Positions 32,445 through 60,824 of a stretch of DNA of 64,000 nt are shown one piece after another (the first letter of the stretch is position 1; every line of letters starts with the position of its first letter). The position numbers were made by a program, and so were the translations under genes. The DNA is from Bisporella sp. PMI_857 (Eukaryota > Ascomycota > Leotiomycetes > Helotiales > Helotiaceae): NCBI GenBank assembly GCA_021307315.1, contig JAJSPD010000076.1, forward strand, positions 1 to 64,000. Direction: 5' to 3'. A model generated the notes under the pieces. It made no database searches. It had not been told where the DNA came from and saw only the letters and a list, made by a program, of their open reading frames with translations.

Positions 32445-33240
32445 ACTTCTGGCGGGCGTCAGCCAGTTCTGTGTTTGCTAGAGAGAATTACGAAAACTTA
32501 CTGTTTAGTAAAACTCCTTCGTAGTTTCGGTCATAAAATGTTGAAATGATTCCGATATGCAGCTAGCTCAAAGGACTGCGTCTGGAGAATAAGCAACATA
32601 TAGAGATAATAGATGATGTTGGTTGCTTTACCTGTTAATTACTAAGGCTGTTTAGTCTGAACGGATCCCGCGGAACCGATGTCTAGTACGAAGTCGGGCT
32701 CCGCAGACACTGACAACATACGCTGAGGGTCCGGCGGTGGACCGTTAGTACGCCGCTACTGGAAAGATGGTCTTAATTGGGGGAATGACGTATACAGACC
32801 AACCTTTTCCTAGAGATACGTCCCCAAATCCACCTCCATTTCTTCGTCCTTCGACTTACTCGCTTGCTAGATTGGGTCCGTGCACGGCCTGCATGGGCTC
32901 GCTTCATTAAACCATAAACGAGATCCTGACTGGACCTCGGCAAATCCACACTAAAAATTGTATGGGGAACTAAATGAACTTCATGTAACCAGGATAGGCA
33001 GTTATTGCGAATAAGGTATTTATCCCAGAGCTCAAAATCCTTAGTTCCCCTTAATATACACATAGTCAGAATTCCAAGAAATAGAAATCGGATAAATTTT
33101 GATAGAGTGGCTGACCTTTACGTGGATATATGCACCTTGAGGGTCATGAACTAATTACTGGTTATGACCAAATATTATATTTATGCTGGAAGTAAGGCAT
33201 TTGAGATCTGTGTTCACTACCTATACCTGTCCTCACATAC
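32445..33240. other. Intergenic region without a supported gene
   Basis: A 96-codon minus-strand frame at 32773-33063 has no recognisable motif. Nothing else seen. Confidence 0.4.
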
Positions 33241-39298: not shown

Positions 39299-40162
39299 CT
39301 AATTGAACTGCGAGAAGAACTCCCATGTGTTTTGGGGGGCAAAAGGTGTGGATGAGCCGCTATCCATCTGGGATGGATTGTGATCTCCACTGTGTATCAC
39401 CCAGGTCACCGGATAGCCTTCCTTGCAACCTTTATATACAGTCTTGACAGATCTACCCCCTTGCGGCTGAGGCTCCTGGACCGCGGTACATCCATTGTTC
39501 TTGACGAACCTGTCACGCAACGAGCGGCCACCAGAAACATTCAGAACCGAGTCCGAAGTACCGTGCTGTCCGTAGTATGCGACTGGATCATTTCCTCCAG
39601 AACAACCACTAAGTAACGAGCCAGAAATAACGGCAATGGCACGGATATCCTTGGGCCGTGCGCATGCGACAGCATAGGACATGGCGCCACCGTAACTAAA
39701 GCCAGTGGAGAAACGGAGGGTGGTGTCCACGCAGAGATCCGCTTCAACCGTCTTGACCATATTGTCGAAGAAGGTGATATCCTCACCTCCCGCGTTGCCC
39801 CAACCATTGTTGAGTCCATTTGGCACAACGAAGATGGCGCTGTTGTTTGTTAATGGCGGGAGACCGTAGTAAGGTAGGACACCCCCCTTGTTTGGGTCCT
39901 CTCCGTTGACGATATTAATGGCGCTACCACCAAGTTGGTGCCAGGTAAAGATCAAGCGGTATGGGCGATTTTTGTCGTACTGAGACGGGAGCTTCATGAT
40001 ATACTGACGTTGCTTGCCATTGACGGTCATGGTATAAGATTGGCTGGTTATTGTCGGATTCTTGCCACAGCCAGCGGATTTTGCGGCGAGGCACATGTCC
40101 AGAGACACGAGGACAATAAATGCCACGGCTACGACCACCATGTAGTTCGGTCGCCTGTACAT
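39299..40162 (-). CDS. Secreted feruloyl esterase, CE1 type, no CBM
   Basis: The intronless frame gives 287 residues. A signal peptide is present (hydrophobic YMVVVAVAFIVLVSL, cleavage near CLA-AKS). The alpha/beta-hydrolase domain begins SAGCGKNPTI. The nucleophile Ser156 is in GFSYGG; Asp204 (HGTSD) and His261 (SGDHNP) complete the likely triad. Cysteines fit disulfides of secreted CE1 esterases. These enzymes release ferulate from arabinose side chains of xylan. It is divergent from the GH3 gene across a 1.7-kb gap and is paralogous to the CBM1 esterase at 51207. Confidence 0.88.
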   Translation of the reverse strand: MYRRPNYMVVVAVAFIVLVSLDMCLAAKSAGCGKNPTITSQSYTMTVNGKQRQYIMKLPSQYDKNRPYRLIFTWHQLGGSAINIVNGEDPNKGGVLPYYGLPPLTNNSAIFVVPNGLNNGWGNAGGEDITFFDNMVKTVEADLCVDTTLRFSTGFSYGGAMSYAVACARPKDIRAIAVISGSLLSGCSGGNDPVAYYGQHGTSDSVLNVSGGRSLRDRFVKNNGCTAVQEPQPQGGRSVKTVYKGCKEGYPVTWVIHSGDHNPSQMDSGSSTPFAPQNTWEFFSQFN

Positions 40163-41835
40163 CTTGTAGATTCAACTGATAGAGGTAAAGAGGTGATTGA
40201 CGACATACGCCGACCAAATAAGGCGCAGTAAAGAGCAAAAATCAACGGGTGGAATACATTTAACGGAATAAATCTGCAAGATGGCTGGACAGGTACTTGG
40301 TTCTGCTGTAGTAGGTAAACAGGATATATATACCTCTTACTAATGTTTACTAGAAGTTCAGGCTATAGGGCAACGAGATCATTCGACACTGTCGAAGGCC
40401 CGGCATTTGTAACGGCATCTCTCTGATGCATCTCTTCGGCATTTCATACGTATTTTTCATTTACGAAATAATTCTAGGTTGACCCCTTAAACATTACCCT
40501 ATATGTGGACTATTCGCGTGCCAAGCGGCAATACTCGCGGACCTGTGGCCGGTCCTGGACGGGAAGAATTTAAGCCTTAATTAGTTATAGATCAACTTAT
40601 TATAAGAGTAATCCTAAGAAATTCTCTACTAATGCGCCGAAGTTCACTTGGCGTCAGAATAAATCGTATTATAGTACCAGCGCTGGTTATTATTCTCTAT
40701 ACACCTACCTAGCTTTTATCTCTGTTAGGACTATATACGAAATCCCTACTACTTTTCTATTAATTATAGGAGAATCCTAAACTCTAATAATCAATTCTCT
40801 TAGCTAATGGAAGAGGCTAGTTTCATTATTTGAATAGTTTTGACAAATCTAAATATAGGTGTATCGACAATAATAACTAGTGCTATTATTGAGTATCCAA
40901 GTTATAATAGTAATTATTAATTTTATGCTTTCTATTACTATTATTAGAACTTTTAATTCTTTGCTCTAAGTAGTGTTTCTAGCGTCAGCTAAGCACGGAT
41001 AGGAGAATAAAGGCCTCTATAGCACCTATAATAAGGGTACCCGATTTAACCACATTGCCGTAGGCTTGTCTCCTAAGCGGGTTAGCTTACGGCCCCTACC
41101 GAATTAGGCTATAATGCTCCCCGCGTTTCGGCAAACGCTCTAAACTTAGTCTAACGAGTCGTCTTCTAACTTCCATGCCTTTCTTTATCTACAACTTCCT
41201 ATTTCGATTGCTGAGCACTCTTTGTCGATTAATGTTTACCTAATCTTCGACCTTAAGGGCCCGGCACTGATATGCAAACATGTCTATATGCCTCGGCCGT
41301 ATTTAGATCTCAGATAACTTCATTAGATGAGCAGCGGATATTCCGGATGGTTATTATCATCATTAATAATCATGAAATCTATAACGATCTCAAGTGCATT
41401 GCTACCTAACCTTTTAAGCCTGCAAAACCTCGTCTGGCCCGACTTAATGATGACCCTGGCGCTAGATCTTGCAACAAGGTAGCAGTTACATTTTCCGGTA
41501 GAGGCGGCCCTATAGGGTAATTAGGTGAAAATTATCCTATATCAGGAAGTGGTTTCGATAGTAACTTGGAAGGCGAGCCTCCTTTTGCGACATATCCGCA
41601 ACAATAAGCCATCGGATTCACCTGTTTTCGCAACCATTTGCTTTCTTCAATGTCGATCACCGCCAGGCCGGCCCGCCTTGACAGCCGTCACTACTAGACT
41701 TTAATCAATAAGTGTGGCCATGGCAAATGCACATAAACTCGAAATTTGAGGTAACGATCATACTTACAGCCTTGTCCATCGCTCCCGTCTATCTCATAAA
41801 GTTGCATTGTGGTTTTAGGCCCAAGTCTATCAATC
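40163..41835. other. Divergent promoter region, partly TA-rich decayed DNA
   Basis: Lies between the feruloyl esterase and GH3 starts. The middle (40560-41000) is rich in TAATA/CTATTA and looks like RIP-worn repeat DNA. I found no clear GGCTAAA boxes of the XlnR kind, only GGCTAG near 40815. Confidence 0.4.
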
Positions 41836-44163
41836 ATGAAGCCGTCATCAGCAGCTTATATCGTCGGATTGGCGTTATTAGCCTCGCAGTCGTCCAGTGC
41901 GGCTCTTCCTGACTGTGTAAACGGACCTCTAAAGTCGAATAAAGTGTGCGATGTGACCGCCTCGCCGGCCGACCGAGCGTTTGCTCTTGTTCAAGCTATG
42001 CAGTCTGACGAAAAGCTGCAGAACATCATCAGGTATGTGTTGCGAGATGGATTGATATTCGAGAATCGAAATTGACCATTTCCTAGCAAATCGCAAGGGG
42101 TCTCACGGCTCGGCCTACCGCCTTACAACTGGTGGAGCGAGGCGCTCCACGGCGTCGCCGGCGCTCCCGGGGTGTCATTCTCGGCCTCGTCACCATGGAA
42201 CTATGCTACTTCCTTTCCCATGCCACTCCTTATGTCGGCAGCATTTGATGATGATCTCATCGAGCGGGTTGGAACTGTAATTGGTACAGAAGCAAGAGCA
42301 TTTGGCAATGCCGGCCATTCTGGAATCGACTTCTGGACTCCAAATATCAACCCTTTCAAGGACCCACGCTGGGGCCGTGGCTCCGAGACACCCGGCGAAG
42401 ACACCTTGCGCCTGAAGGGCTATGTAGCAGCTCTGCTTCGGGGTCTCGAAGGAAATCATGCCCAGAGGCGCATAATTGCCACCTGCAAGCATTACGCAGC
42501 TAATGACCTTGAATCATGGGGTGGCGTAACTAGACATAACTTCAACGCGAAGATCACCCTACAGGATTTAGCCGAGTACTATCTACAGCCCTTCCAGCAA
42601 TGCGCGAGGGATTCCAAAGTTGGGTCTTTTATGTGCTCCTACAACAGCGTCAACGGAGTTCCAGCTTGTGCCAACAAATATCTTCTGCAGACGATTCTTC
42701 GGGAGCACTGGAACTGGACGAGTGGGAACCAATACATCACTAGCGACTGTGAGGCTGTCCAAGACGTTTCGCTGAATCACCACTACGCTCCTACAAACGC
42801 TGCGGGTACGGCACTTACTTTCAACGCGGGTATGGACAGTAGCTGTGAGTACACCTCATCCTCAGATATACCTGGAGCATGGCAGAGCAAGCAGCTTACG
42901 GAAGCTACGGTCGATCGGGCTTTGCGACGATTATATGAAGGGCTTGTCAGAGCTGGATACTTCGATGGAGCCAAAGCTCACTATGCCTCGCTTGGCTGGT
43001 CGGACGTCAACACACCACAAGCACAACAACTAGCTCTTCAAGCCACCGTCGATGGCATAGTCATGCTCAAGAATGACGGCGCCCTTCCTCTGAACCTACA
43101 CTCTCGCACCAGAGTGGCCATGATTGGGTTCTGGGCCAATGCGACCAACAAATTGCAGGGGGGATACAGTGGCAAGGCGCCGTATCTACACACACCTGTA
43201 TACGCCGCTCAACGGATGGGTCTGACGCTCAATGTTGCCCCCGGCCCTATCCTGGAAACAGCCTCTGCTCAAGATAACTGGACTGCCAATGCACTGGCAG
43301 CCGCGTCGAATTCAGAAGTGGTTCTGTACTTTGGGGGTCTCGATACATCGGCAGCAGGAGAAGAAGTCGACCGAACCTCGCTGGAATGGCCCAGCGCGCA
43401 AGTGGCTTTGATCAACAAACTCGCGGGGCTCGGCAAGCCGCTGGTAATTGTGCAGGAGGGCGACCAACTTGACAACACGCCGCTTCTCACCAATAAGGGG
43501 GTATCCTCAATCCTCTGGGTCAGTTGGCCAGGGCAGGACGGCGGGACGGCAGTGATGCAGATTATCAGTGGGATGAAGAGCCCCGCCGGCCGTCTTCCTG
43601 TTACACAGTACCCTGCGAATTACACCCAGTTAGCAATGACAGACATGAACCTTCGTCCAAATGGTTCCAATCCAGGGCGTACGTATCGGTGGTACCCAAA
43701 TCCGGCCCAGGCTTTTGGATCCGGCTTGCACTACACTACCTTCATGGCCGCGTTCGCAAACTACAGCGCCAGCTTGTCTATCCTGAACATCTTAGACGGC
43801 TGTAAGAACATAAACCCGGATACATGCGCTCTCCAGCCTCTCCCCGTCAGCGTCGTTAACACAGGAAATCACACGTCCGATTTTGTTGCGCTCGTCTTCG
43901 TCGCCAGCCAGGCTGGACCCAATCCGTACCCGATCAAGTCGCTCGCTGCGTATGGTCGCCTCCGAAACATCACTTCCGGCCACACGGCCACTGCGGCATT
44001 ACCGTGGACTCTTGGTAGCCTGGCCAGGCACGACGAGAATGGCAATACTGTTCTATATCCTGGTAGTTATACACTAATGCTGGATCAGCCTACGCAGATG
44101 ACGATGAACCTGGTTCTTACTGGTGATCCTGTTGTACTGGACAAGTGGCCGGCGGCGAGCTAA
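41836..44163 (+). CDS. GH3 exo-1,4-beta-xylosidase, secreted
   Basis: Exons 41836-42032 and 42087-44163 give 757 residues, close to the usual 760-800 for fungal GH3 xylosidases. The signal peptide is MKPSSAAYIVGLALLASQ. The N-terminal domain has LGLPPYNWWSEALHGVA and DPRWGRGSETPGEDT. The nucleophile Asp286 lies in ITSDCEAV. The second alpha/beta domain and fibronectin-like C-terminal domain are present. No breaks. It hydrolyses xylobiose and xylo-oligomers, completing xylan breakdown begun by the GH10 enzyme of the same cluster. It is transcribed away from the CE1 esterase. Confidence 0.93.
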
Positions 44164-44299
44164 CGGGAAGATATAATAAGTGTGGAAATAGGATGAAACA
44201 AAATATGCTGTATAGAAGTTTCGAGAATTTTACTAGTTCTTATTTTTTCGTCTTAATAGTTATTTGTTCTAATATATTAGAATACGAACTATTAGTAAC

Positions 44300-44485
44300 C
44301 TAGTCAACAAGCGAGTTTCTACCACAAGTGAATTTCCATATTTTTCTTGGCATCGTACAAAAGTCGCAAATATCCCAACAATAAAACAATTAACATGGTT
44401 CACAAGTGAACCGACAAAACGAGCAAACCGACAATTTTTTCTTGGCATGATAAAAAAAACATTAAATATTTAAACAATACAAATA
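44300..44485 (+). repeat. Two tandem Fot1/pogo terminal-repeat-like remnants
   Basis: Segments at about 44303 and 44396 resemble the left end of the pogo element at 28357 (CACAAG...TTTTTCTTGGCAT). A further resemblance to internal pogo sequence (GACATGTTCGTACGTTGTG) lies at 45220-45240, beyond later insertions. Confidence 0.6.
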
Positions 44486-44495
44486 ATTAACTATA

Positions 44496-44970
44496 CAGCA
44501 AATATCTCATATACCATACTTTTTTTGACGAATATCTTATACACAACTTTTATGGTATATATATGAGATATATGTCAACAAACGTGTGGTATATCAGATA
44601 TTCGTCAACACTCACTGTAAAGCCTGTAATACACGCTGGAACGACACTACTATAGCGACACACACTGTAACGACATATACTGTAACGACATACACTGTAG
44701 TAATACAACATACACTGTAACTATACAATATATACTGTAACAATACAGACTATATTAATACTATTGCTACAATCGCTGCAGCGTGCGTTGTATTGCTGCA
44801 GCGTGTGTCGGTACAGCGCAACAAAATAGTGGTATATAAGATATATAAGTGTTTCTTATATACCATCGTTTTGTCAATAGGTATCTGAAATACCACTGTT
44901 TTGCGCCAAGAGACAAAAAGTGTATATGAGATACTCGCCAATGAAAATATTGTATATGAGATATTTGCCG
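44496..44970. mobile_element. MITE with 9-base duplication, copy 1
   Basis: Inverted ends of the type CGGCAAATATCTCATATAC (left reads CAGC...) enclose 475 bases. Flanks TTAACTATA and TTAATTATA differ by one C/T. The interior has an ACACTGTAACGACAT-like minisatellite (44630-44760). A 9-base duplication suggests Mutator-like mobilisation. Confidence 0.78.
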
Positions 44971-44989
44971 TTAATTATAACTGTTGGTT

Positions 44990-45172
44990 TCGCTGTGTTC
45001 TTACCTTACACGGGGCAAAAGGCGTAGCTTCGTAAAGCCACGCTCTTGCTCTTGATGGATATGGTAATTGTTGTTGTTGTATTAGATTCTACTCTAGATT
45101 CTACAAAATGGGGGTTGTGCGGACCACGTGACCCTGGTGAGTCATACGGGTCCGTAAACCATACTACCTACA
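44990..45172 (+). repeat. Dispersed repeat copy, partner of 30450-30640
   Basis: Long identity with the 30450 copy in the same orientation. It follows the MITE within 30 bases. From 45173 to 45425 there is a pogo-like remnant and no gene. Confidence 0.75.
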
Positions 45173-45434
45173 ATAACTCTTCAATATCTGAATCTTCAAG
45201 TTCTAATCTACTGTTTTGACATGTTCGTACGTTGTGGCCAAACTGCTTGTAGGTGCTGTACGCCCGGCTAAGCCTAATGGCCTCTAAAGTATATAAGTAT
45301 GTGCGCGTGGGTCACTTAATTATAGCCGGCACATGCAACAGGTCATTCTTGGCAGTTGAAGAGGCGAGTGTGAAGTAGTAATGCGGGGTATTATTCCGCA
45401 AGTTAAATCCTGCTTCTAGTAATGATTAAAACTT

Positions 45435-45906
45435 CGGCAAATATCAGAGATACCACCTAAAAGTCGATTAATATCACACATACCACCTTTTTTGTATCAC
45501 TCTATGAGAGATACCACATTTTTTGTCTTGGCAAACCGTAAAAATGTAATAACGCAACAAATATAATAATTAAAAGTTGACAATTGTAGTTTTTAGTAAG
45601 TTATAGTTTACTTTAATATTAACATAAATAAATATTATATAAAGTTATGTTACTACTATAATTAAACACTTATTTAGTGTAAAATTGTAACTGTTATTTT
45701 AATATAAGATTTTAATATATAAACTTTATTTAATGCACTATTAATACGCTTAGCTATAATAAATTTCGACTTATTATAACAAAAGCAAAAAAAAGTATAA
45801 AAAAAAAATTTCGCTTTAAAAAGGTGGTATTTCTGATAGAGTGATACAAAAAAGGTGGTATGCGTGATATTAATCGACTTTTAGGTGGTATCTCTGATAT
45901 TTGCCG
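45435..45906. mobile_element. MITE with 9-base duplication, copy 2
   Basis: Inverted ends begin CGGCAAATATCAGAGATACC, with roughly 75 bases of terminal repeat. The duplication TTAAAACTT is perfect (45426-45434 and 45907-45915). Total length is 472 bases with an AT-rich interior. Same terminal family and size as the MITE at 44496. Confidence 0.88.
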
Positions 45907-46147
45907 TTAAAACTTTGACCACTTAAAAACCTAGAAGCGAATGCGTTTTGATCAATTTGCAAATTTGCTCGGTATTACTATGGAGACTAGAATAATAGGC
46001 AATAATGATACGAATACGTTTCCCTATTAGTTCGGCCCTTCTACGGAAGCTATAATGTTAGGCAATATGGTTGCCATCGCCATGTAACCCTAAGACCTTA
46101 GATACGCATGAAAACCATCAAAACTTTATCAGGGGCGAGCTCAAGCG

Positions 46148-46174
46148 GTATATATATATATATAAATATAAACT
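46148..46174 (+). promoter_or_regulatory. TATA-rich core promoter of the GH12 gene
   Basis: An alternating TA run and TATAAATATAAA lie about 75-95 bases before the GH12 start codon, a usual distance for a fungal TATA box. Confidence 0.45.
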
Positions 46175-46245
46175 GAGCAGAGTGTGCAAAGAGAGATATC
46201 AAGCAAGTTAATTTCACCTCATTTCAGCTACCTATCTTGAGTACA

Positions 46246-47101
<856 letters not shown>

Positions 47102-48415
47102 AAGAATCCCGCGTATCTCATGGGAACTGAGTGTTTGAAGTTATATATTGAATCTCAAGTGGTGGGTAGTTATAGAGATGGAGATGTACTTTCGATCCGC
47201 TTGAATTCAGATCAAGTTGAACCCAGCAAGTTTGATTTACTGTATATATCTAAGTTTAAATATTATGTATTTTCATATATCCTTAGTAGGCTCAGGGCTT
47301 GCCATGAAGGTGCCCAACTATGCCATCAGTTGCCATGTTCTAGTCGAGGGAGCCGAGCATGGCCCTTGTGCACCGTCCCCCTTTCCCCGTAAAGATATAT
47401 GTAGTGTCAAGTTGACCAAATCTATAAAATACATGTTTGTATCAATATTTACCAGTATAGATTAGTTACTGAATGGAGGATGGGTCATGTGACGAAGTCA
47501 CATGACTTAGGGATGAGGCATATCCTCATCCCTTGATTCATCCTTCGACAATCAGATCACATTCAACCCAACAGGCAACTGCGTAGCAATTACGTGGTGT
47601 TGCCACGGGTAGAGTGATCCGACAATACAATTAATTAAAATGCCTAATGTAGGTATGTCCTAGAGTCACCTCCTCACAGCCCTCCTCCTTGAAAAGCACA
47701 AATGAAATCGCTCTGACCGTTAAGTTGGCCTTTGGTTCTGACATCTTTTTCCCGTCAGCCCAGTGTGCAAGTTATATCTTTCCATTGTTGAATAGCCCGA
47801 AAGGAAATGGATTTTTGACTAATTTAATTTTCTCCAGTCCCTCCTACAAGCCGATAAGCTGCCTGATTACAAACCCCCAATTAGCAATGCCCTCTTGCGA
47901 AAGGCGACGTATTCTTGCTCATATTCGGGAGATATAGAGTACAATACAAATTTAAACTGTTAATAGTTTTTGTTCGTCCATAGCCTTAACCAGCGCTTTC
48001 TCGCACAGTCGTAAAATTAGACTGCGTAGGTTTTGCTTTCCCCCTCTACACGACTTGATTCGACATGAATCTACCTAAATTCCAGTCCTAGTTAAACCAT
48101 TTCTTTCTAATGATATTCAGAATTAAACCGCTTCTCTTCTAAACTAAACTAATCAATAAGTCAGGCGCCTTTGGCTTAAAGTGCCACGAAGGCGAATATA
48201 TTTGACTCTTAATTCAAAAAGAAAGTAATTAGAGGTTTCCAATTGTTATATATAATGAAAGTGAAGGTGCTAGAACCCTTTGGCCTTATGCTAAGCAAAC
48301 CGAAGCTGGCAGGCGGCAATGGCCCCAACTCTTACAATAGATGTATAAAATATACTCGAAACAGATGTGTACACAGAGAATATGACAAAACTTCTCGTCC
48401 GTTACGACCATAAAA
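47102..48415. other. Convergent intergenic region
   Basis: Lies between GH12 (plus) and GH27 (minus) 3' ends. No gene or clear repeat seen. Confidence 0.4.
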
Positions 48416-49796
48416 CTAAGCTTTGGTAACTTTAAATACGGCCATATTGTGGAGGCTTAGAGCGGCAGACACACTGGTTCCTGAACCAGATGCTCCCCCA
48501 TATAATTCTGACCACTTAAAAGTACCAGCACCCAATCCAGGAACATCGGCGAAATCGACCGAGAGCGTGGCAGCATTTTCTGCTGCGATGAGACCAATAA
48601 CAACACCACTGTTGCTAATTGGGCCTGCCCAGTATGGGTAGAGCTTGCCTGATTGTGGGGCGGGTTTGCCCCTTGGTTGGAATGGTGCAGCAGCTTTTCC
48701 GAGTGGATCTTGGTTGATCGCTATAAGTGCCTTCATCTCTATTAGCAAGTGCCTGGCTTGGTGACTGATCGGATCAGTTCGAAGGCTTTACTTGTACCTT
48801 ATTCTTGATGATGTTGAGAGATGAGGAAGAAATCTTTGCGAGATCGCTCCCTAGAATAATTGGTGATTTTGCAATACACCACAGTCCAAAATGGGTCCGT
48901 TCTTCGGCTGTAGTAAGTCCTCCATTCCCAACTTCCTGAAAGATGGTTAGCCTCCTGCACTTTTGTTGTATTCCCAGTGTGTGATAATTACCATCATGTC
49001 AAGGTCATTAAATCCCCCGGGTCCAGAGTAAGCGGATATAGTCCCTGCATGAGAACCAATCTTGACGATAGAGTTCCAGTTATTCTGGATATCCCCCGTC
49101 GTCCTCCAAGAATTTCCAACCGACTTACCCCAGGTCCAGACATTGTCATTACCCCACTGGCATATCGAGTAAAGAATAGGGCGCCCGGAAGTGGTTAGTG
49201 CGTCTCTCATCGTTATAAACCTGCCCGAGGAATTTCCACTTGGCGTGTAGCAATTATCATACTTCCAATAATCCACGCCCCAAGATGCCAACAGCCTTGC
49301 ATCCCTGATCTCATAGCCCTGAGATCCCGGGTAGCCTTCACAGGTCTTTGTGCCTGAGGAGCCATATAGACCAAATTTCAGCCCCATTCCGTGGATCTGA
49401 TCCGCCACGGCTTTGACCCCATTTGGCCACTTGGAAGGGTCAGGAACCATCTCTCCAGCCGAGTTTCTATCTTTTGTTGCCCAGCAATCGTCGATATTGA
49501 CATAGTTGTAACCTAAGTCTTTCAGGCCGAGGCTGACAAATGCTTTTGCAGCCGTTAGTGCGTGTGCAGCTGTTCCAGCTGAGCATCCTCCTACATTCTA
49601 AATATTTGGTGAGTATGTGTTCATTCTGATAGTTACGAAGGCAGCAGCAGAATGAGCCTACCCAGCTATTCCAGCCAAGCGCTGGGGTTCTACCCAGACC
49701 ATTCTCTAGCCGTTTGTTGTACTCTATTGAATTTGCATAGGCAGCTCTCCCTAGCGTTGCTAGCAAAAAAGGGAGTGTGAAGAGCGTCCGAACCAT
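48416..49796 (-). pseudogene. GH27 alpha-galactosidase with a one-base frameshift
   Basis: Exons 49796-49662, 49597-48992, 48936-48798 and 48730-48416 follow clean GT-AG sites and would give about 397 residues. The signal peptide is MVRTLFTLPFLLATLGRAAYA. Family motifs are GRTPALGWNSW, NIDDCWA, the nucleophile Asp159 in WKYDNCY and the acid/base Asp214 in WRTTGDI. In exon 3 the frame EVGNGGLTTAEE is followed by one extra base, seen as a run of three T on the plus strand at 48900-48902. Only after skipping it does RTHFGLWCIAKSPIILGSDL follow. As read, translation ends at 48799-48801 and loses the beta-sandwich domain. Either a true lesion or an assembly error. The enzyme removes alpha-galactosyl groups from galactomannan and related polymers. 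Confidence 0.85.
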
Positions 49797-51206
49797 TTTG
49801 TTTGTTAATTTGACTATCAATCCTTAAGTTTGTTAGTAGCGAATGCCTGAGAAATATGCTTGAGCTTCTGGAATTCTAAAAGCGCACTATATAATTGCGC
49901 AGTTAGTCTTGTGATGCGATGAATGAAAGTATACTCCCGTTACTTGCAACTCGGTTGAAGATAAAAACTGCCGACCCAATTTCCAGTGCCTGACAGGGGA
50001 TCACAATGTGTTAGATCCAGATTTGAGACTTTAGGTGCAGTACTTTCGGTGCAATGACATCCCATCTGATTTTTACGATAAGCTCACTATTTTTATCTAA
50101 ATAACCTGTTTTTTATCTAACTAGAACTTAGATTTATACGCCAATTAGGCTTGTAACTTGGCATTTGGTTGATGTTAATATGCATAGTTTAATTGTAATT
50201 ATCCTTCAATCGGAACGGAAATTCTGCGTTGCCTTTCCGAATCTATGAATGTATACCAAGTTACAATGCCTTTAGTTTATTGGAAAACCAAAGTTCACAC
50301 GGTTTAACATGAAGCCTTTATCGACTTGTTTATGTTCCCGTATAAATTTAACTTAGCAGCAAATGTTGTGCTTGAAACGAAACTAGAGTGTGTATCCAGG
50401 TCCGGTCGATCATGGCGAAAGTATTAGGAATTACTAAAATCGGTATCCCGATTAGACTGCGGTGCCTCGGCTTGCCGCCCAATAAAATACGTATGATTCT
50501 AGTCGATTCAATTATCCAGAACTAATAAGTCACCCGGGCATGCCAGTGATGCTACCCATCTGCTGCCAAGTTCCCAGAATTGAGTCATGAATACTACCAC
50601 AATGGCTATGGGTTCCAAAAACCCGGTCTATGATGCTGAATTTCTGAATTGCTCTGTTTGAAAGTCAGCTCCGTGTCGGGTAATTGTGGCTCGTATAAAC
50701 CTTGCGTGCGGCAACTTCGTATCTTTAGTACTTTTAATTTTACTGGTCGACCGTGTTGTCCCACTTCTACAGTACAGTCCCGGCTGTCGTGTGAATTTTC
50801 TAATTTCACTGCAGTCCACCCCGCAATTTCCCAATCCCTCTGCCGTGTCAGGTGCCGGCATATGTAGTGGGATAAACTATCTGGCACGCGCGCTCGATAT
50901 TGTACCTTTTTGGCCCGTTTAGTACAGTGGTAAAGCTTTACAGCTACTGTCCCTGATAGTCGGCTGCACTCGACATTTTCACAGTGCTTTACCTACAACA
51001 TAAAAGACTTAATGGGTTCAAGAGCTGGAATAATTAGTTCCGAAGCTTAAATAAGTAAGGCTACTAACTCGAACTAAACTAAAATCTGGAACGGAAAGTG
51101 TATCAAGAGGCCAGCTAGCAATTATGATATACAACTAGATGAGTCCCTTCCGGATTTCTTGCTATCCTCACATTGCCAGCCTCATCGCTTTGCAGCCTCA
51201 ATTAGT
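49797..51206. other. Divergent promoter region
   Basis: Separates the GH27 and CBM1-esterase starts. No further gene seen; short open frames at 50606-50922 have no family resemblance. Confidence 0.4.
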
Positions 51207-52285
51207 ATGGTTTCTTCAATCCCCCTCTTTGGAGCCTTGCTCTATAGCTCAACAATGGTACTAGGCTATCAAGCTTTAGGCAGCCAATGTAAAATTGCCC
51301 TCGACTCCAATCTTCCCATCCTAAGAACTAACTTAATTCGCACAAAGGCTGGGGCATCGGCTGGGCTGGTTCAACTGAATGCGCAGTCGGTGCATGCTGT
51401 CAACCATTGAACAGCAGATACTCAGAATGCCGTCCCGGAGCCTGCAACCCCTCAGGAGAAACCACCCCCTCCACTAAGCTCGAGATCCGGCCAAATTCAG
51501 CTGGCTGCGGCAAGAACCCAACCTTGACATCTGGAGTTAAATCCATCATCGTCAACGGCAAAACCAGGCAATACACCATCCGTGTACCAAACGGGTATGA
51601 CAGGAACAAGCCCTACAAGCTCATCTTCGCATACCACTGGGTTGGCGGCACGATGAACGACGTTGCAAGTGGCGGCAGCGACGGCGCCTTGTGGGCCTAC
51701 TACGGGCAGCAGCGCATGGCGAATGAGGCCGCAATCTTGGTTGCGCCACAGGGGCTCGGGAATGGCTGGGCCAACTCCAATGGGGAGGACATCGCATTCG
51801 TAGACGCGATGCGGCAGTCCATCGAGAGCGAGCTGTGCGTGAATCAGGGCCAGCGTTTTGCCCTCGGCTTCTCCTATGGTGGCGCCATGAGCTTCTCCAT
51901 TGCGTGCGCCCGCGCCAAGGATTTCCGCGCCGTAGCTGTTATTTCAGGCGGTCAGCTGAGCGGGTGTAGCGGTGGAAATGATCCGATTGCATATATGGGG
52001 ATCCACGGAATCAGCGATGGGACCTTAAATATCGTGCAAGGGCGGGGAATGCGTGATCGGTTCGTGGCGAACAATGGATGCAATATGATTATGCCCAAGG
52101 AGCCAGTTGCTGGGAGCAAAACACATGTCAAAACTGAGTACACGGCGTGTAGGGCTGGGTATCCGGTAACATGGATTGCGTTTGATGGTGGCCATGCTCC
52201 TGCTCCTGTTGACGGAGGAAATGACAGCGGTGCAAGGTCGTACACCCCCGGGGAAATGTGGAATTTCTTTTCTCAGTTAAGCTAG
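51207..52285 (+). CDS. Feruloyl esterase, CE1 with N-terminal CBM1
   Basis: Exons 51207-51288 and 51348-52285 give 339 residues; the 59-base intron carries an ACTAAC branch site. After the signal peptide (MVSSIPLFGALLYSSTMVLG) a CBM1 runs from about Gln22 to Pro57, with six or more cysteines, GWAGSTEC and SRYSEC. The intron splits its first Cys codon. A short Pro/Thr linker leads to the esterase starting SAGCGKNPTL. Triad Ser203 (GFSYGG), Asp251 (HGISD) and His310 (GGHAP). The catalytic domain is a clear paralogue of the 39299 gene. The CBM1 would tether it to cellulose so that it frees ferulate from nearby xylan. An in-frame upstream Met at 51159 exists, but the 51207 start gives the cleaner signal peptide. 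Confidence 0.9.
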
Positions 52286-52720
52286 TAGAGATAGGAAACC
52301 GTCTGAGGTTTGGAAAGTTCGAATAAAGAGATGATAATAGGATTGCAGTTTATATTGTAGTGGAAAGCTCTGTTCTCTTATATTCATTTACTCAAAACAA
52401 CTGCAAAGAAATATACGCAAAATGATTTCAATTCTTGACCAGGTCGTAGCACTACTTCTTCCAGTGGTCCGTCGAACTCTAGATGGCAGGGATGCAGTGG
52501 GTGGCTTTAGAGTGGCCATGCTAACCCTACCTTCATAATGCGGATCGCCTGTGCTCAGACTCATAGTGGTCATCATACATGCAGTGGCATTCTTCAAAGG
52601 GCTAATAGAGACTTTGAATAGAGGATATAATTTCCATGACATTCCCCAAGTTTTCTGAGTTTGCACAAGTAATTAGCACCTGATTCACCAAATCGCGCTA
52701 CTGTACGCGCGAATTCCTAA
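52286..52720. other. Convergent intergenic region
   Basis: Between the esterase and xylanase 3' ends; no gene seen. Confidence 0.4.
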
Positions 52721-53845
52721 TTATAGCGAGCCCATGATAGCTGTGTAAGCTGCCTTAGGCTGATAGTTTGCATCATATAGCAGCGGGTTATCCCCCTTCC
52801 TCCAGCTATCCCTATCACTGACGCCCCATACAGTGATACCGACGCACTTCGGAACATCGAGACATGCCTTGACAACAGTCACATAGTCTGCGGCGGCAGC
52901 ATTCTTGATGTCCAGTTCGGTCAGCGCGACTTCTTTGGTCGAGGACGCAGCTAGAGCCTTAAGCGCCGCAGGTACACCAGACGCAGCTCCAAAACCAGAA
53001 GCGGACAAATGACTCTGACTACCAATCCCATCGATGGGAATGCCTGCGGCGATCCATTTGTTGACATGTGCAACCATGCCGGTAGTCAGCTTCGCATATG
53101 AAGCGACGTCGAGATTGTACTCATTGATGTAAAGCTTGGCATTGGGGTCAGCGGCACGTGCGGCTCTGAAAGCAATGCCGACGAAATCCTCCCCTAAGAC
53201 CCGCGAGAAGACCGAATCCCGTAATGACCCATCCTCGCTGAAGATCTCGTTCACAACGTCCCAAGCATACACTTTGCCCTTGTAACGATTGACCAGTGTG
53301 GTAACGTGATTTTGGATGACGGAAGTAAGCGTTGCCCTATCGTTGATAGCGCTCACCCATGCTGGAAGTTGGGAGTGCCACACTGTTGAGTAATAGTCAG
53401 CCACATTCACTTGTACGTTTCAAAACACGGAGATCTACTTACGAAGAGTGTGACCTCGGATAAGTTTACCATTAGACGTCGCAAAGTTTGCAAGAGTATC
53501 GGAGCCCCCAAAAGTGAACTGTCCTCTTGACGCTATGAAGTTAAGATAACTTATTCTTTATAGGTTAGCCACCAGGCACTTACGTTCTGTAGCGTCCCAT
53601 TTGAAGCTATTCTCGGCCGTCAATGCACCAAATTGCGATTTAATGATGTTAGCATTTTGTGTATTTGACAAGGTTCCTGAATCGCCAATCGTTCCAAAAT
53701 ACTTCTTTCCATGTGCGACGTATTTGGAATTGAGCGTAGCTGACTGCCTCTCATTAAGTGCGTTTGGTTTTATCACGGGGAACGGACTTCCATTAACCAC
53801 TGGAAGTAAGGTAGCAAGGATTGATACGAAGTTGTACAGAAGCAT
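52721..53845 (-). CDS. GH10 endo-1,4-beta-xylanase, secreted
   Basis: Exons 53845-53584, 53532-53443 and 53382-52721 give 337 residues, a single-domain GH10. The signal peptide is [19 protein letters not shown]. Family motifs run in order: [27 protein letters not shown] (crossing the second splice), the acid/base Glu163 in WDVVNEIF, and the nucleophile Glu273 in ALTELDI, then [13 protein letters not shown]. No breaks. It cuts the xylan backbone and tolerates substituted xylan, which suits neighbours that remove arabinose and ferulate. Tail-to-tail with the CBM1-esterase and divergent from GH62. Confidence 0.94.
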
Positions 53846-54852
53846 AGTGGCAAACGAGCCTTCGAGTGAGCACAGAGGAAGGACTAACTTGGGCTTAAGA
53901 ACAAAGATTTTTCAGAGAAAATTCACTATAGTGAGAAAGTACACGGAGCGAGCACAGGTATTTGTTCACGAACTGGCGTCGAATCTTCACTAAACGGCAT
54001 GACCCCTTGTGGCATACGCGTTAAGCTGTGTCGAAGGCAAATGAAGAGGATCTACTAGAGGTGGATGAATATAAGGATGATAGGTGCGAAAAACATGTTG
54101 TCGCGAAATGAAATGCTTTAAAAACAATTAATTAAAATAAATAAAAGGCCACGGGTGTTTCTTCTCCTTTCTGATCATGAGCTCGCATTCCCCGACAACG
54201 GCACTTCCTCAGTGAATCCGGGGTAGTCGCCTTCGTATTCATCTTGGGGTCGTAGCAACAGAGAAAACGAAGGAGTAAACCCACCTGATCTCAGTTGTAG
54301 ATCTCGGATTATGCGTAAGATAATTTGCTATATTTAACTGCCGAGGTTGGTTAGGGCTATGTGCCACTCAAAACTGGCACGCTGGGTCCTCACTGGGTTT
54401 TCCCTAGTGGCGCGCTTGCCCGCCGCCCTTGGCTAATGGTCATCTCCATCGTACTGGAGCGCATAATTCTCATGGATGCTTATTGCCGCCCCAAATCGTC
54501 TCTTTTCTCGCTCATGTACCCTGGAACGAGTGGATCCGCACGCTCCTCCTTACTTACATTAAGGTTACCCTGACATTTCGGGCTGGAGTGGGATTTTTTT
54601 TAGACTTCTGGCAAGAACCTGAGTTCTGAATTCTCCACGTATCGCGAACTATCATCAGCCTAAGAACATTCAGGATGAACTCGAGGCTTTTCGACTGGAG
54701 ATTGAAACATGTGGTAAATCGGAGGGTTGCCTCTAGTTCAAGTTGCTAGGAGCCATGCTCGAGAATTATATATTTCTTAGCTGAGCCTGTCACTCCCCGC
54801 CGGCTTTCTCTGTATCCACCTGACAGCTTCCCAGGCTAGAACCGTTCTCACT
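53846..54852. other. Divergent promoter region between GH10 and GH62
   Basis: About 1 kb shared by the xylanase and arabinofuranosidase starts. No gene seen. A shared regulator is plausible but I could not identify sites with confidence. Confidence 0.4.
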
Positions 54853-56019
54853 ATGAGATTTGCAGACATCAACCATAGTATTCTCGCGCTGCTCGTGCCG
54901 GCTACGATCGTGGAAGCGCAGTCATGCAGTCTTCCGTCCTCATACCGCTGGACATCAACCAGTGTGCTGGCTGAGCCAAAGTCAGGATGGGCGTCACTAA
55001 AGGACTTCTCTAGCACTATGTATCTGGGCAAGCATCTTGTGTACGCTTCTAATAACATCAACGGAAACTACGGCTCGATGAATTTCGGCCTCTTCTCTGA
55101 TTGGTCTCAAATGAGTTCCGCTAGCCAGAACCCTATGAATCAAGGCACCGTGGCACCTACTATTTTTTATTTTAAGCCAAAGAACATTTGGGTGCTTGCA
55201 TATCAATGGGGTGCAACTGCATTCTCGTACAAAACTTCGACTGATCCTACCAACGCAAACGGGTGGTCATCCGCACAGCCACTGTTTAGCGGAAGTATAT
55301 CCGGCTCTGGCACAGGCCCTATTGACCAGACTTTAATTGGCGACGATACAAATATGTATATTTTTTTCGCCGGTGATAATGGCAAGATTTACCGAGCTAG
55401 TATGCCTATTGGAAACTTTCCTGGTAGTTTTGGCAGCTCTTACCAAACAATTATGAGTGATACGCAAGCCAACTTGTTCGAAGCAGTCCAGGTCTACACG
55501 GTCAAAGGAGCGACTGGCAATGCCAAATACCTTATGATTGTCGAAGCTATGGGAGCCCAAGGTCGTTATTTTCGATCTTTTACAGCTGGTAGTTTAAACG
55601 GCTCATGGGCTCCACAGGCTGCTACTGAAAGCAAGCCTTTTGCCGGCAAAGCCAACAGTGGTGCAACGTGGACTAACGATATTAGCCATGGTGATCTCGT
55701 TCGTCCTGATCCCGATCAAACAATGACCATCGACCCTTGCAACCTGCAGCTACTTTACCAGGGACGCAACCCTAGCTCTGGCGGCAACTATAACCTGTTA
55801 CCATATCGGCCCGGTATCCTGACGCTACAGAATCCTGTCAGAAACGATGCTGGTAGCCCAAGATCAACAGCATGATTACCACCTTCCTCAGCGCCACCAA
55901 CCGGCTGCGCAACTATACGCTATTGGCAGTGCGGTGAAAGCGGCTTCACGGGCTACACAGTCTATGAATTGGGCTCGACATGTATTGTTTCAAACGAGTG
56001 GTACTCACAGTGCCTCTAG
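54853..56019 (+). pseudogene. GH62 alpha-L-arabinofuranosidase, CBM1 cut off by a TGA
   Basis: The open frame 54853-55875 encodes a signal peptide and a complete GH62 domain: [41 protein letters not shown] and [12 protein letters not shown]. Acidic residues in SLKDF, IDQ and FEA fit the GH62 catalytic set. After a TGA at 55873-55875 the same frame continues LPPSSAPPTGC and a full CBM1 (YWQCGESGFTGYT...CIVSNEWYSQCL) to a TAG at 56017-56019. A CGA-to-TGA transition explains the stop. The catalytic part may still be secreted without its cellulose anchor. Intact length would be about 388 residues. It releases arabinose from arabinoxylan. No splice I tried removes the TGA in frame. Confidence 0.88.
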
Positions 56020-57775
56020 ACGGTTGAGGCTAAACCATTAATAAATGTGTTTTATGTGTATGTTTTCCGTAGGTTAGTGCAGCGGCGGTTATTTAAACAA
56101 ACCACTTTTCAGTTTGGAGGCATACAGATGAAGATTTGTTGGGCATGTCACCTGTATCTAAACTCTGTACAGCTGGCGATAAATACGCGCATTGAGTTTC
56201 AACTCAGATCGGTTTCACTTTTTCCAGCTTATCTAAACGGGTCGTTATTCTCTGCAAGATATAAGATTCTGAGGCATCCAAAAGCCTTTGTTTCTCGTTA
56301 CCTTTTTGCTTTTGTCTCCTGTATTTTGATGGCAAGATTCTGTATTCTTAAGAGGTGATTGTAAGCAAGATGAGTAGAATGCGTATTCAACTACGCATGA
56401 TATGAGGCTTCGGTAATTGCACCAGAACAATAGTGTAACTAGAGATAGGTGTCCATATACGCTCTTTCCTTTTCGAGATGTGCGCTGTCCGCTCCACGTC
56501 AAATATTATGACGAACCTGTGAGTGTCCGAGAAACTTGTATATATATAACTTAGCCTCACGCCAAGTCTTAACTTCACTATAGCTGTCGCCTTTGGATTG
56601 ATGACATATGTTTGACATTCCTCCACTACTAACCCGCCGCGCTCGTTGCCGTTGTATCGCATGAAGTTATTCGACATTTACATAATAATAAGTTGAGGAA
56701 ATTTATCTAACCTTGCAGACCCAGAAGGGAAGAGCTCAAGGGTGTAGAATTCCATGCTGTATATTCTATTTGACATCATTATATCTCTTAAACAAGTATA
56801 TTATGTTGAAATTGAGTACTATTTAACATTTCCAATCTCTTCGATCTGATATTAAGCGTGAATTACTTCACTATTCTTCGCGCTTATTTGAAGGCGAGTT
56901 CGTGACAGAGCATCACACTTGGGAATTGATATAGTATTCACGAAACTTGAGCCATATGTAAACAATATAACTAGCCAATTCGAGGTTTAGTTCTAGGTAG
57001 GATTGAACTTTAGGCATAGTTTACGCAACTTTGACTAAGAACGCTATAATTATAAAATATTAGAATCCGATATCAATCTTCTCTAACATTTGTGATTTGC
57101 GCGTAGTAGTTAATAAGTTTTCTAATCCCTTGATGTGAGGGATTATATAAACGTAGTGATATCTGAGATGGCTGTCGCAGGACCATATGATGTGACGACT
57201 CTGTATGATGAACCACTGGCTGGTAACTCCTGTCCCGCTGCCCAGCTGCACTTTCCTGTATAATAGAATTGGTATTGGTTGTTCCTTTACACCCCAAAGT
57301 AAGTAAATAGATTTAATATAAAAATAAGTCCACGGTTTTGCGCTAAAACCTGAATTCTCCGCACACACCTATTGGCATCGCCATTTGAAAATGATAGTGC
57401 TAAACGTGACACCACCTCCAAGTGATTGAGGTTTCTATGATATTTACTTGAAGCAAAATCAAGTAGTAAAGGAGCCGTCTGTTATATCTTACACCGCAAT
57501 TCTAAATGGCCTCATCTGCCGAGAGCCGAAATGTATCTAATGAATACATTCTCTTCTGGATTCAAAGTTTCTGTTCAACGAAACATTATCCGCAGACTCG
57601 ACTTTTCACGACTTTGCTTTTTATCTAGTTTGCTCTCTCATTGCACTCACATTGAAAGATCATATTCAATAAATTGATCCTGTTGGACAATTGCGTCCAA
57701 CAACTTTTCAAGATGAATCATCTGCCGCTTTCGAGGCTATTGCAACTGCTATATTCCGGTACATTGTATCAGCTG
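56020..57775. other. AT-rich intergenic region
   Basis: No gene recognised over 1.7 kb. Confidence 0.4.
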
Positions 57776-58395
57776 ATTACTTCTTCCACCATCTCTCCCT
57801 ACACGATGTGCGATCACAAGGGTTCGAATGCGTTCGCTACTCAACTCAGGGATTCAGCCCCATCTCGGCACCGCAATGCTGAGCAGTAACGATATGCGCT
57901 GCAATATGGGTGCCTGAGCAAATGCTGCCACTGCCAAGGCGACAACCATTAAGGCAGGCGAAACGATTGGTTTTGGCACCAACATCGCTGGTAACATCCA
58001 GCACCCAGGTCTTATCCAGGTTTGTGAGGCTAAAGCCCCAGGGAATGTCACTTAGTACGACGGTAGCAGGGACTGGTTAAAGATTTCCGAGCTTGACGCA
58101 AACATCTACAGGCGAGAGCTGGCTTGTTTGGAACAAGAATCGTATTAATGTCACTATTCCAAAAGAAGTTCTCGCTGGGCAATACCCCGTCCGGCTAGAA
58201 CATCTTGCTCTTCATCGGCCCTCTGGCTCAGAGATGTATTTCAATTGCGCTCAAATCGAGGTTGAACGCGACAGCACCATAACACCGACGGCCATAGTTA
58301 AGATTCCGGGTGTTTATAGCGCTAACACAAAAGGCCTAAGCCCCAATATAGTATTTCCAGTGGCAAAAGCTGTCATTCTTTACGCTGTAGAATAG
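57776..58395 (+). pseudogene. AA9 lytic polysaccharide monooxygenase relic
   Basis: The last 100 codons (58093-58395) match the end of AA9: NVTIPKEVLAGQYPVRLEHL, then ALH, YFNCAQIEVE and IPGVYSANTKGL. Upstream, in shifting frames, come ECVRYSTQGFSPIS (57830), LSSNDMRCNMGA, then TGA, ATTIKAGETIGFGTNIAGNI, KAPGNVT, then TAG where Gln is expected, and YDGSRDWLKISEL. Thus two stops and at least two frame changes are visible, and the N-terminal His exon is not recognisable. AA9 enzymes oxidatively cut cellulose. This copy is dead. Confidence 0.82.
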
Positions 58396-59735
58396 TACAG
58401 GCAGTTAACCAAATCTCGGAATTAAAGTCTGAACCTTCGAGAACATCCAAAAACACAATAGAAATTAACTTGGACTACTTCGTTGTTCGGTTTCTTCCGA
58501 AGCCCTAGCTGGCCACGAAATGGGTTAATTACATTATATAGCAGAAGCATTGTATGGTAGAGAGTCGTTAGAAAATGGTAGAAAATGGAGAGGGGCCACC
58601 ACTCGAGGAACCTACCAAACAGATAATGAGATATAAGATCCAGGCGGGTACAGATTCGGGCGAAAGCATTGCGTTTCGTGGCCGAGGGAGCTAGGCTTAA
58701 AACGTGCACGATACTAAAGGTTGATTGCAGATGCAACGGGAGGCTACGAAGCTTTGGTAAGCTTTCCAGATTGGGAATGCTTGATAAAATATGGATCCAA
58801 AAGCGCTTAATAGGCTTTCACTCGTGCTTTCAGCTTGAGGTATTGTTGGGTGATCTGGCTGGACGTATAGCTGTGGATTGAAGCCATACCTCTACTCCGC
58901 TTAGACTGTGCCTGCCAAGGATTTCTGGTCCCACGGCCGTGCCAGCTCTAAAACCCACCTGCAGCTTTGCAGCGTCTTTATCCGCATACTTTTGAGTGCG
59001 CCCGCCGGGAATATTACCACCTTGAAACAAACTTTGCGTCTTTCGCACGCTGTGACACCATGATACACCCAAGAATAGGGGTTCGATTAACTCAACGGGG
59101 TAAGCTAAGCGAGCCGCCCTCATCAAATATTTACGATGCTCCCTCCTCTTTTGTCAACACCACGAATGCAAATAATGCGCTGATGCAATATATTAGCAGG
59201 AATAAGATCTGTTGGGGTGGGCGGATGAGCATCTCAAAAAGAACGGGCGAGGCGACCACTTTTACGCTGTCGACGCGTCGGACGGTAGTCTTCCATCGCC
59301 TAACAGTGACTGCGCATCTGCCTTTCTGATTCAAGTTTAATCGGCCTCCGCCTTATGTAAAGGTTTATAAATGTCCAGCAACTGCCAAAGTTTTATGTAA
59401 AAATGTAGTTATTTATTTAGTTCCTCATGTTTAAAATACTTCAGTTTAGCAATTTATAGTTTGCTTTATTTTGCAATGTTTTTATTTGTGTACAAAAAAC
59501 TTAATGTTCAGTCTACTTTATATACAGTACCAACTAACGTACCCCAAGCATTGTACAGAGCCCAAGGCAACCCCAGAACGCTACATAGTTGTTGCTACAA
59601 ATATAACTTCCATTGACCCTTAACCTTAGCCGCTCCGCTAACTCTAATTTTTATGCCAAACTCCAAGCCACTCTATACCCATCCCAAGCCTCCATACTTT
59701 GTACACGATGATTACCACTCTAGAAAACGTTGCTA
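58396..59735. other. Intergenic region
   Basis: Short open frames only; no family resemblance. T/A-rich between 59340 and 59520. Confidence 0.4.
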
Positions 59736-60824
59736 CTAATGCTTAGAAGCATCCGCAACAGCAGTAGCTCCGTATCCATCAGCTTGATCAACGCTAGTGG
59801 CAGCAGCTCGCACGCTATCTGCAACCGACACGGTGGGGATAACGCCGAGCACGTTAACGCTGCCTCCGGTAGTCGTAAGCCCTGCAGCAGTGGAGTTGAC
59901 CCCAACGGTGATGTAGCCCACAAGGCCGTCGGCAAGGTCGTCGCCGAGCTGGGTAACGCTGACAACGGATGAGTAGCCGTCGGCATTGGCGGCGGAGTAG
60001 AGAGAATCATTTACGTTCTCGATAATGTCAAGGGTCTCAAGATGCGCGGCGTAGGGGCTAAGTTTGTACACGCTATCAATCAAGTCTTGATCAAAGAATA
60101 GCTGACCGATATGTTGAACAGATGCGGCGCTATAGCTGGAACTATTGGTGACGCTGGTTTGGACCGTTAGGTGGATGTGGGTTGCGCGAGTGGTGTAATA
60201 GCCGGGAAAGATGGTCAAGAACTCAGCGACTCCCTCGTCGCTCGTGGCCATGATACCACGGAGAAAAGTCTCGTCATCCGTCATGCCGTTATCCTTCCTG
60301 GTATATCCGTCCATAAGGTTGGCGGTGTCGGGATCAATACCCGTGAAGCCGGAGTAGTACCCGGTGGCGTTGCAGTGCCAGATGGTCAAGTAGGCGTCGG
60401 GGAGAGGCTCGCAAGTCTCAACATCGATAACACCGATGTCCAGGTACAGGTCAACCCCTGTGTGGCTTTCACGCACATCGTGGCGATAGATCTCGCCATC
60501 CACGGCGTAGGGCCCCCAAACAACATCGGGGGCTAAGACGCAGGTGTCGTTTTGGATCGTGGTGTACTTATCACGCTTGACTGCGGGCGAAGTCAAACCC
60601 CGGCGAAGGAGTGAATTACGCTCGGCTTCTCGACGACGAAAGAGACTCTCGGCCCTCTTGGCTAAGGCAGCTTCTTTGCGGGCCTCAATCTGAGCCGTGC
60701 ACTTGTCAGATCCTCGGCTAATGAGCTCATGGCTGTGAGAATGCTCCTCGGAGAGCTTCGAGGGGTGTGAAGCTACAGAGGATATAGTGGCAGCGCAGGC
60801 CACAAGCAAGGTGATAAGCTTCAT
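59736..60824 (-). CDS. Secreted intradiol ring-cleavage dioxygenase-like protein
   Basis: An intronless 362-residue frame has a signal peptide (MKLITLLVACAATISSVAS) and a basic, probably processed N-terminal segment with KR and RR sites. The dioxygenase-like core begins TCVLAPDVVWGPYAVDGEIY. LYLDIGVIDVETCEPLPDA and LTIWHCNATGYYSGF follow. The metal-site region is GYYTTRATHIHL, with Tyr and two His. A Gly/Ser/Thr-rich tail follows. Intracellular members open catechol rings; extracellular fungal members are thought to act on catecholic or lignin-type aromatics. It sits next to a cluster with two feruloyl esterases, so a role with released phenolics is a reasonable inference. Confidence 0.85.
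   Translation of the reverse strand: MKLITLLVACAATISSVASHPSKLSEEHSHSHELISRGSDKCTAQIEARKEAALAKRAESLFRRREAERNSLLRRGLTSPAVKRDKYTTIQNDTCVLAPDVVWGPYAVDGEIYRHDVRESHTGVDLYLDIGVIDVETCEPLPDAYLTIWHCNATGYYSGFTGIDPDTANLMDGYTRKDNGMTDDETFLRGIMATSDEGVAEFLTIFPGYYTTRATHIHLTVQTSVTNSSSYSAASVQHIGQLFFDQDLIDSVYKLSPYAAHLETLDIIENVNDSLYSAANADGYSSVVSVTQLGDDLADGLVGYITVGVNSTAAGLTTTGGSVNVLGVIPTVSVADSVRAAATSVDQADGYGATAVADASKH

Follow-up and report, generated by a model that had tools for sequence, protein, structure and literature searches.

Bacterial polysaccharide utilisation loci (PULs) place enzymes that cut the backbone of one glycan, remove its side chains and finish its oligomers next to one another, and a transporter and a regulator are among their defining features. 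The closest known fungal systems are the clusters of genes for carbohydrate-active enzymes (CAZymes) in Trichoderma reesei, which may also include genes for small cysteine-rich secreted proteins. In the available text of a study of this species, a cluster is defined as at least three CAZyme genes separated by at most eight other open reading frames (ORFs), 71 of 228 such genes fall into 20 clusters, and 12 of these 20 lie within 150 kb of chromosome ends (PMC4812632). Further reports, likewise as far as their available text goes, describe AT-rich blocks that divide the T. reesei CAZyme clusters (PMC5496416) and a gene order of CAZyme clusters that is more than 80% conserved within the genus Trichoderma, lateral transfer being rejected as their source (PMC5908196). 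Here we describe a run of hemicellulase genes in Bisporella sp. PMI_857 (Helotiales, Leotiomycetes; genome of 55.6 Mb in 284 contigs), located in bases 1-64000 of the 211,103-base contig C259; this 64,000-base stretch is referred to below as the window. With moderate confidence, we read the run as a non-random, substrate-themed hemicellulase cluster but not as a self-contained utilisation locus; it is of a known kind, the fungal CAZyme cluster, and is unusually tight, contiguous and substrate-coherent as well as partly decayed. Literature searches turned up no description of the locus, and the sole paper found that names strain PMI_857 is concerned, in its available part, with secondary metabolites.

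The block comprises eight CAZyme loci from seven families at 39.3-58.4 kb (two feruloyl esterases, GH3, GH12, GH27, GH10, GH62 and AA9), after which comes an intradiol dioxygenase gene with a signal-peptide-like start (Table 1). The original prediction had listed eight cell-wall loci and a dioxygenase with no other recognisable gene between them; Pfam and solved-structure matches confirm the loci, and none of the six gap ORFs of at least 100 amino acids matches Pfam, in a domain scan that covered 40 of the 87 window ORFs of at least 100 amino acids, including all six in the gaps, and left aside shorter ORFs and 11 ORFs overlapping cluster genes in other frames. Whole catalytic domains are present in seven of the eight CAZyme loci, the exception being AA9. 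The esterase domains of both CE1 loci have only sub-threshold Pfam matches, and their assignment draws on the match of both proteins to the solved feruloyl esterase 8jh8 and on their likeness to each other (50-52% identity); the best solved homologues of the GH3 protein, whose spliced frame is open, are xylan 1,4-beta-xylosidases, including 5a7m and XlnD 6q7i; and the C-terminal part of the GH27 protein is a beta-sandwich. All gene structures are predicted models, with exon limits from a simple home-made gene finder and reading frames judged by eye, starts and stops re-read, and signal-peptide-like starts judged by eye rather than by a predictor.

Judging from family activities, the GH10 enzyme would cut the xylan backbone, the GH62 enzyme would take off arabinose, the two esterases may release ferulate, the GH3 enzyme would finish xylo-oligomers and the GH27 enzyme would take off galactose, while the GH12 enzyme may attack accompanying glucan or xyloglucan. 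The complementary arabinoxylan theme and the unusual contiguity that had been proposed for the block are supported by these family assignments and by simulations of gene density. Profile searches of the genome, with matches merged by a distance rule and with CBM1 and PF00775 left out, gave 103 mapped genes (GH10 5, AA9 29, GH43 20, GH62 3, GH12 4, CE1 6, GH3 30, GH27 6), where the counts for large families are lower bounds, fragments may count as genes, and identical-scoring copies on contigs C241 and C263 are both included. Eight of the 103 lie within 21.6 kb on C259, whereas uniform placement of 103 genes reached a maximum of 4 in 20,000 trials, and placement of 600 assumed genes regardless of family reached a maximum of 6 in 5,000 trials; the exact odds are biased, because seven of the eight mapped families (all except GH43) were picked from the block itself. 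The next densest place for the mapped families holds three, the AA9 genes on contig C274. Outside C259, eight close pairs within 21.6 kb (three of them of different families) compare with 4.1 expected and a simulated maximum of 12, and clustering elsewhere is therefore weak by this measure. GH11 occurs at two places in the genome, both on other contigs. The density of the cluster is far beyond chance, and the block falls under the published T. reesei-type definition, as worded in the available text, and is tighter than that definition requires. As a separate observation on the assembly, C241 and C263 both carry AA9 and GH12 matches of identical score in opposite orientation, which suggests that they are duplicated or haplotypic contigs.

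Table 1. Features of the hemicellulase block and its adjoining sequence, in window coordinates (aa, amino acids; MITE, miniature inverted-repeat transposable element; RIP, repeat-induced point mutation)
Feature	Coordinates	Strand	Description
CE1 feruloyl esterase	39299..40162	-	Single exon, 287 aa; signal-peptide-like start; solved homologue 8jh8 (E=4.2e-70)
GH3 beta-xylosidase	41836..44163	+	Exons 41836-42032 and 42087-44163, 757 aa; Pfam GH3 N and C; signal-peptide-like start
Repeat-rich, AT-rich GH3-GH12 gap	44164..46240	.	MITE-like; RIP-like dinucleotide indices
GH12 endoglucanase	46246..47101	+	Three exons pieced by eye; Pfam, profile matches on three exons, solved homologues; signal-peptide-like start
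GH27 alpha-galactosidase	48416..49796	-	Several exons pieced by eye; Pfam Melibiase_2 and Melibiase_C; solved homologues; signal-peptide-like start
CBM1-CE1 feruloyl esterase	51207..52285	+	Two exons; Pfam CBM_1; 8jh8 (E=1.3e-77); signal-peptide-like start
GH10 endo-1,4-beta-xylanase	52721..53845	-	Three exons, 330 aa; Pfam, solved xylanases; signal-peptide-like start
GH62 arabinoxylan arabinofuranosidase	54853..55875	+	340 aa, entire catalytic domain; Pfam E=7.9e-152, solved GH62; signal-peptide-like start
Decayed CBM1-like tail	55876..56019	+	3' of the GH62 stop, same frame
AA9 pseudogene	57760..58395	+	Pfam AA9; two in-frame stops and a frame change
Intradiol ring-cleavage dioxygenase	59736..60824	-	Single exon, 362 aa; Pfam PF00775; solved 6bdj, 5vg2; signal-peptide-like start

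The block resembles bacterial PULs in bringing together enzymes that cut the backbone of a single glycan, remove its side chains and finish its oligomers; it is unlike them in using both strands and separate promoters and in having no transporter or regulator in the ORFs scanned. Within the block, the Pfam scan detected neither Zn_clus nor any other regulator domain, and neither a regulator nor a sugar transporter appeared among the 40 of 87 window ORFs, in agreement with the earlier statement that none was in view; the right flank, scanned at 10 of the 38 ORFs of at least 130 amino acids at 64-124 kb, gave a peptide transporter. As far as scanned, the block thus fails two PUL-defining features, transporter and regulator. 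The likeness to a PUL that the original prediction drew is not borne out, given these absences, an XlnR word (GGCTAA) that is not enriched, a dead AA9 gene and a lost carbohydrate-binding module in GH62.

With the T. reesei clusters, as far as the available text describes them, the block shares the placement of differing CAZyme genes closer together than chance, with repeat- or AT-rich DNA nearby; it departs from those loose clusters in that eight loci stand in succession, uninterrupted by any further recognised gene, and that nearly all of them suit one substrate. The view that fungal CAZyme genes are scattered and only loosely clustered agrees with the T. reesei data in the available text (PMC4812632), compared with which the C259 block is tighter.

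Substrate-themed groups also occur elsewhere in the genome, in stretches of which a subset of ORFs was scanned. Contig C28 carries, at 14-39 kb, a tannase/feruloyl esterase, a GH62-CBM1 gene, a GH127 piece, a GH43 gene and a sugar transporter, with a DUF6594 gene and a subtilase intervening; contig C243 carries, at 10-29 kb (about 19 kb), two GH43 genes, a GH35 gene, a Zn2Cys6 gene, a sugar porter and an unassigned 631-amino-acid ORF; C274 has three AA9 genes around a CBM1-GH6 gene; and C244 has a GH3-GH43 pair. The C28 and C243 groups are likewise themed, but they hold fewer enzymes and are less contiguous than the C259 block; C28 has a transporter and C243 both a transporter and a regulator, whereas the C259 block has neither in the ORFs scanned. 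The C243 group is nearer to a utilisation locus than is the C259 block. One could imagine that several such loci together form the fungal counterpart of utilisation loci, the transporter and regulator at one locus acting for enzymes encoded at another, with C259 devoted to the arabinoxylan backbone and side chains, C28, which has a sugar porter, to the removal of arabinose and ferulate, C243, which has both a sugar porter and a Zn2Cys6 regulator, to GH43/GH35 activities, and C274 to cellulose; we regard this as rather doubtful.

Two members of the block show decay. At the AA9 locus, two in-frame stops and a frame change interrupt sequence that can be aligned with two AA9 proteins predicted on C274, and a third comparison protein, from contig C167, aligns only downstream of these lesions. 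Because the stops and the frame change fall within alignable homology, the locus is a pseudogene; the AA9 family assignment made earlier holds by Pfam, but the gene is not intact. The AA9 locus is dead although the neighbouring genes look intact. The GH62 frame is closed by an in-frame stop (55873-55875) in the linker after the catalytic domain, a stop that the deposited gene model bypasses by a predicted short intron. Two cysteines present in the GH62-CBM1 paralogue on C28, which is 86% identical to the window GH62, are missing from the CBM1-like tail behind this stop, and a CBM1 profile gave no match on the tail at an E threshold of 0.001. Of the proposed GH62-CBM1 gene, therefore, the GH62 part is upheld by Pfam and the CBM1 part is not, given the stop in the linker and a tail short of two cysteines and missed by the profile.

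The gene models contain three head-to-head pairs (CE1/GH3, GH27/CBM1-CE1 and GH10/GH62), an arrangement that would permit the two genes of a pair to share a promoter. In the block promoters, GGCWWW, which we take to be the XYR1 core (the meanings attached to the other promoter motifs are likewise our assumption), occurs 42 times versus 28 expected, a count attained in 4 out of 300 shuffles and in 2 out of 200, and its ratio is 1.51 in the block versus 1.10 in 28 non-CAZyme promoters. Two CLR-type patterns occur at 0.60 and 0.40 per kb versus a background of 0.24 each, a comparison made with the background rate only. The AraR word, the CreA word and three composite patterns showed no enrichment over shuffles in the block promoters, and no word of 7 to 9 bases is common to all five of the five promoter regions.

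Several observations weigh against our reading of the block as a non-random, substrate-themed cluster. Decay has set in at two of its eight loci, a finding at odds with selection for the set as a whole. GGCWWW is one of nine distinct patterns tried, with no correction, and 13 other CAZyme promoters show a ratio of just 1.12; the XlnR word GGCTAA is not enriched in the block promoters (1 found versus 3.7 expected); and three head-to-head pairs among eight genes are ordinary, about 1.75 being expected with random strands. In T. reesei, moreover, the available text reports that clustering is generally without impact on expression, except for lower basal expression near chromosome ends (PMC4812632). 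Finally, relatives of the GH62 protein occur in Actinobacteria too, at about 80% identity, and those of the CE1 protein in Sordariomycetes, at 80-82% identity; vertical descent of each single gene is therefore a tentative reading.

Relatives were drawn from the best 120 of 864, 6253 and 2309 scored matches for three queries. For all three genes searched (dioxygenase, GH62 and CE1), the nearest named relatives outside the genome belong to Helotiales, namely Leptodontidium, Phlyctema vagabunda and Stipitochalara; the dioxygenase homologue in Leptodontidium is 80% identical, and the relatives of the CE1 protein encoded at 39299..40162 include a 97% identical ENA protein and one of 85% identity in Stipitochalara. 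This pattern fits vertical descent, and nothing points to transfer of the whole block. Among the matches listed, three species carry two of the three query families, all of them Sordariomycetes (Poronia punctata, Apiospora kogelbergensis and Thozetella sp. PMI_491), and in all three the families lie on contigs of different size, where the contig shown for each relative stands, as the longest, for a 90% cluster and the matches are family members rather than established orthologues; this argues, though weakly, against wide conservation of the block. Tandem duplication was rejected as a source of the block, which draws on seven families and whose sole same-family pair, the two CE1 proteins, is 50-52% identical. 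A segmental duplication shared with C28 was also rejected, as a protein comparison of 12 window ORFs matched only GH62 there. A Starship on C259 was rejected as well: none of the 44 genome matches to the DUF3435 tyrosine recombinase captain lies on the contig.

It is possible, though on balance unlikely, that the block arose by passive accumulation, its genes having gathered, without functional coupling, in a repeat-rich, perhaps chromosome-end-like compartment that is tolerant of rearrangement and gathers genes for secreted proteins, and the block now eroding. The repeats, reverse transcriptase and helicase-like gene on the left side and the RIP-like indices would suit such a history, as would the dead AA9 gene, the decayed CBM1 and the closeness of 12 of the 20 clusters of T. 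reesei to chromosome ends (150 kb or less), reported in the available text of PMC4812632. However, eight neighbours of one theme with no other recognised gene seem to go beyond what compartment bias would produce; a theme is likewise seen in the groups on C274, C28 and C243; and inspection by eye showed no evident telomeric repeat in the contig's first 900 bases, the block beginning 39 kb from this repeat-rich end.

A genuine PUL-like locus of fungal type, regulated on its own and conserved across relatives, would explain the coherence of the enzyme set, and C243 of the same genome does set two GH43 genes and a GH35 gene beside a sugar porter and a Zn2Cys6 gene; yet among the ORFs scanned in the window and the right flank the peptide transporter was the one transporter and no regulator appeared, and the query families lie on contigs of different length in the three Sordariomycete species among the matches listed, so that we hold this explanation to be very improbable. 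Still less credible to us is a gain of the block by horizontal transfer or as cargo of a giant mobile element (Starship). Repeat-rich flanks, the HET genes at 67 and 101 kb, the patatin domain at 23.6 kb and the actinobacterial relatives of GH62 could be read in that sense, but the contig is devoid of DUF3435 matches, the nearest named relatives are Helotiales for each of the three genes searched, and lateral transfer was rejected for the Trichoderma CAZyme clusters according to the available text (PMC5908196).

If the block is, as we favour, a substrate-themed cluster without self-contained regulation, its genes may have been assembled one by one through descent and rearrangement in a repeat-rich stretch; they would be activated in trans by a general XYR1/XlnR-type factor, aided by the three head-to-head promoters, and sugar uptake and regulation would be encoded elsewhere in the genome. 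The block also provides a natural set of predicted arabinoxylan enzymes. If its genes prove to be co-induced, it would offer a clear example of how a fungus groups the enzymes that act on a single plant polysaccharide, and could be used to ask whether fungal CAZyme gene order is selected or drifts; if they are not, it would serve as a warning that tight themed clusters can form and decay without function.

The surroundings of the block are rich in repeats. The GH3-GH12 gap contains an inverted repeat of 89 nucleotides (45435-45523 and 45818-45906, 96% complementary), and parts of the gap sequence recur at 28.3 and 30.5 kb and at about 77.5 kb of C259 as well as on C28. RIP-like indices, by thresholds that we assume to be appropriate, mark 10 of the 11 leftmost one-kb intervals and recur at 21, 29, 38, 40 and 44-46 kb. 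On the right, an aldehyde dehydrogenase gene (62876-64000, extending 123 bases past the window) adjoins the dioxygenase gene and may possibly act in aromatic-aldehyde handling; neither Pfam nor NCBIfam assigns the ORF at 65.2 kb, and further right lie the HET genes, an integrase piece and, at 95 kb, the peptide transporter. The left flank holds a quinone-reductase/alcohol dehydrogenase-like gene (36-37 kb), an epimerase, transposase pieces, phospholipase-like genes, a helicase and a reverse transcriptase. It also includes an intact ORF of the agmatine-deiminase family (31302-32477), which scores under the curated cut-off for agmatine deiminase.

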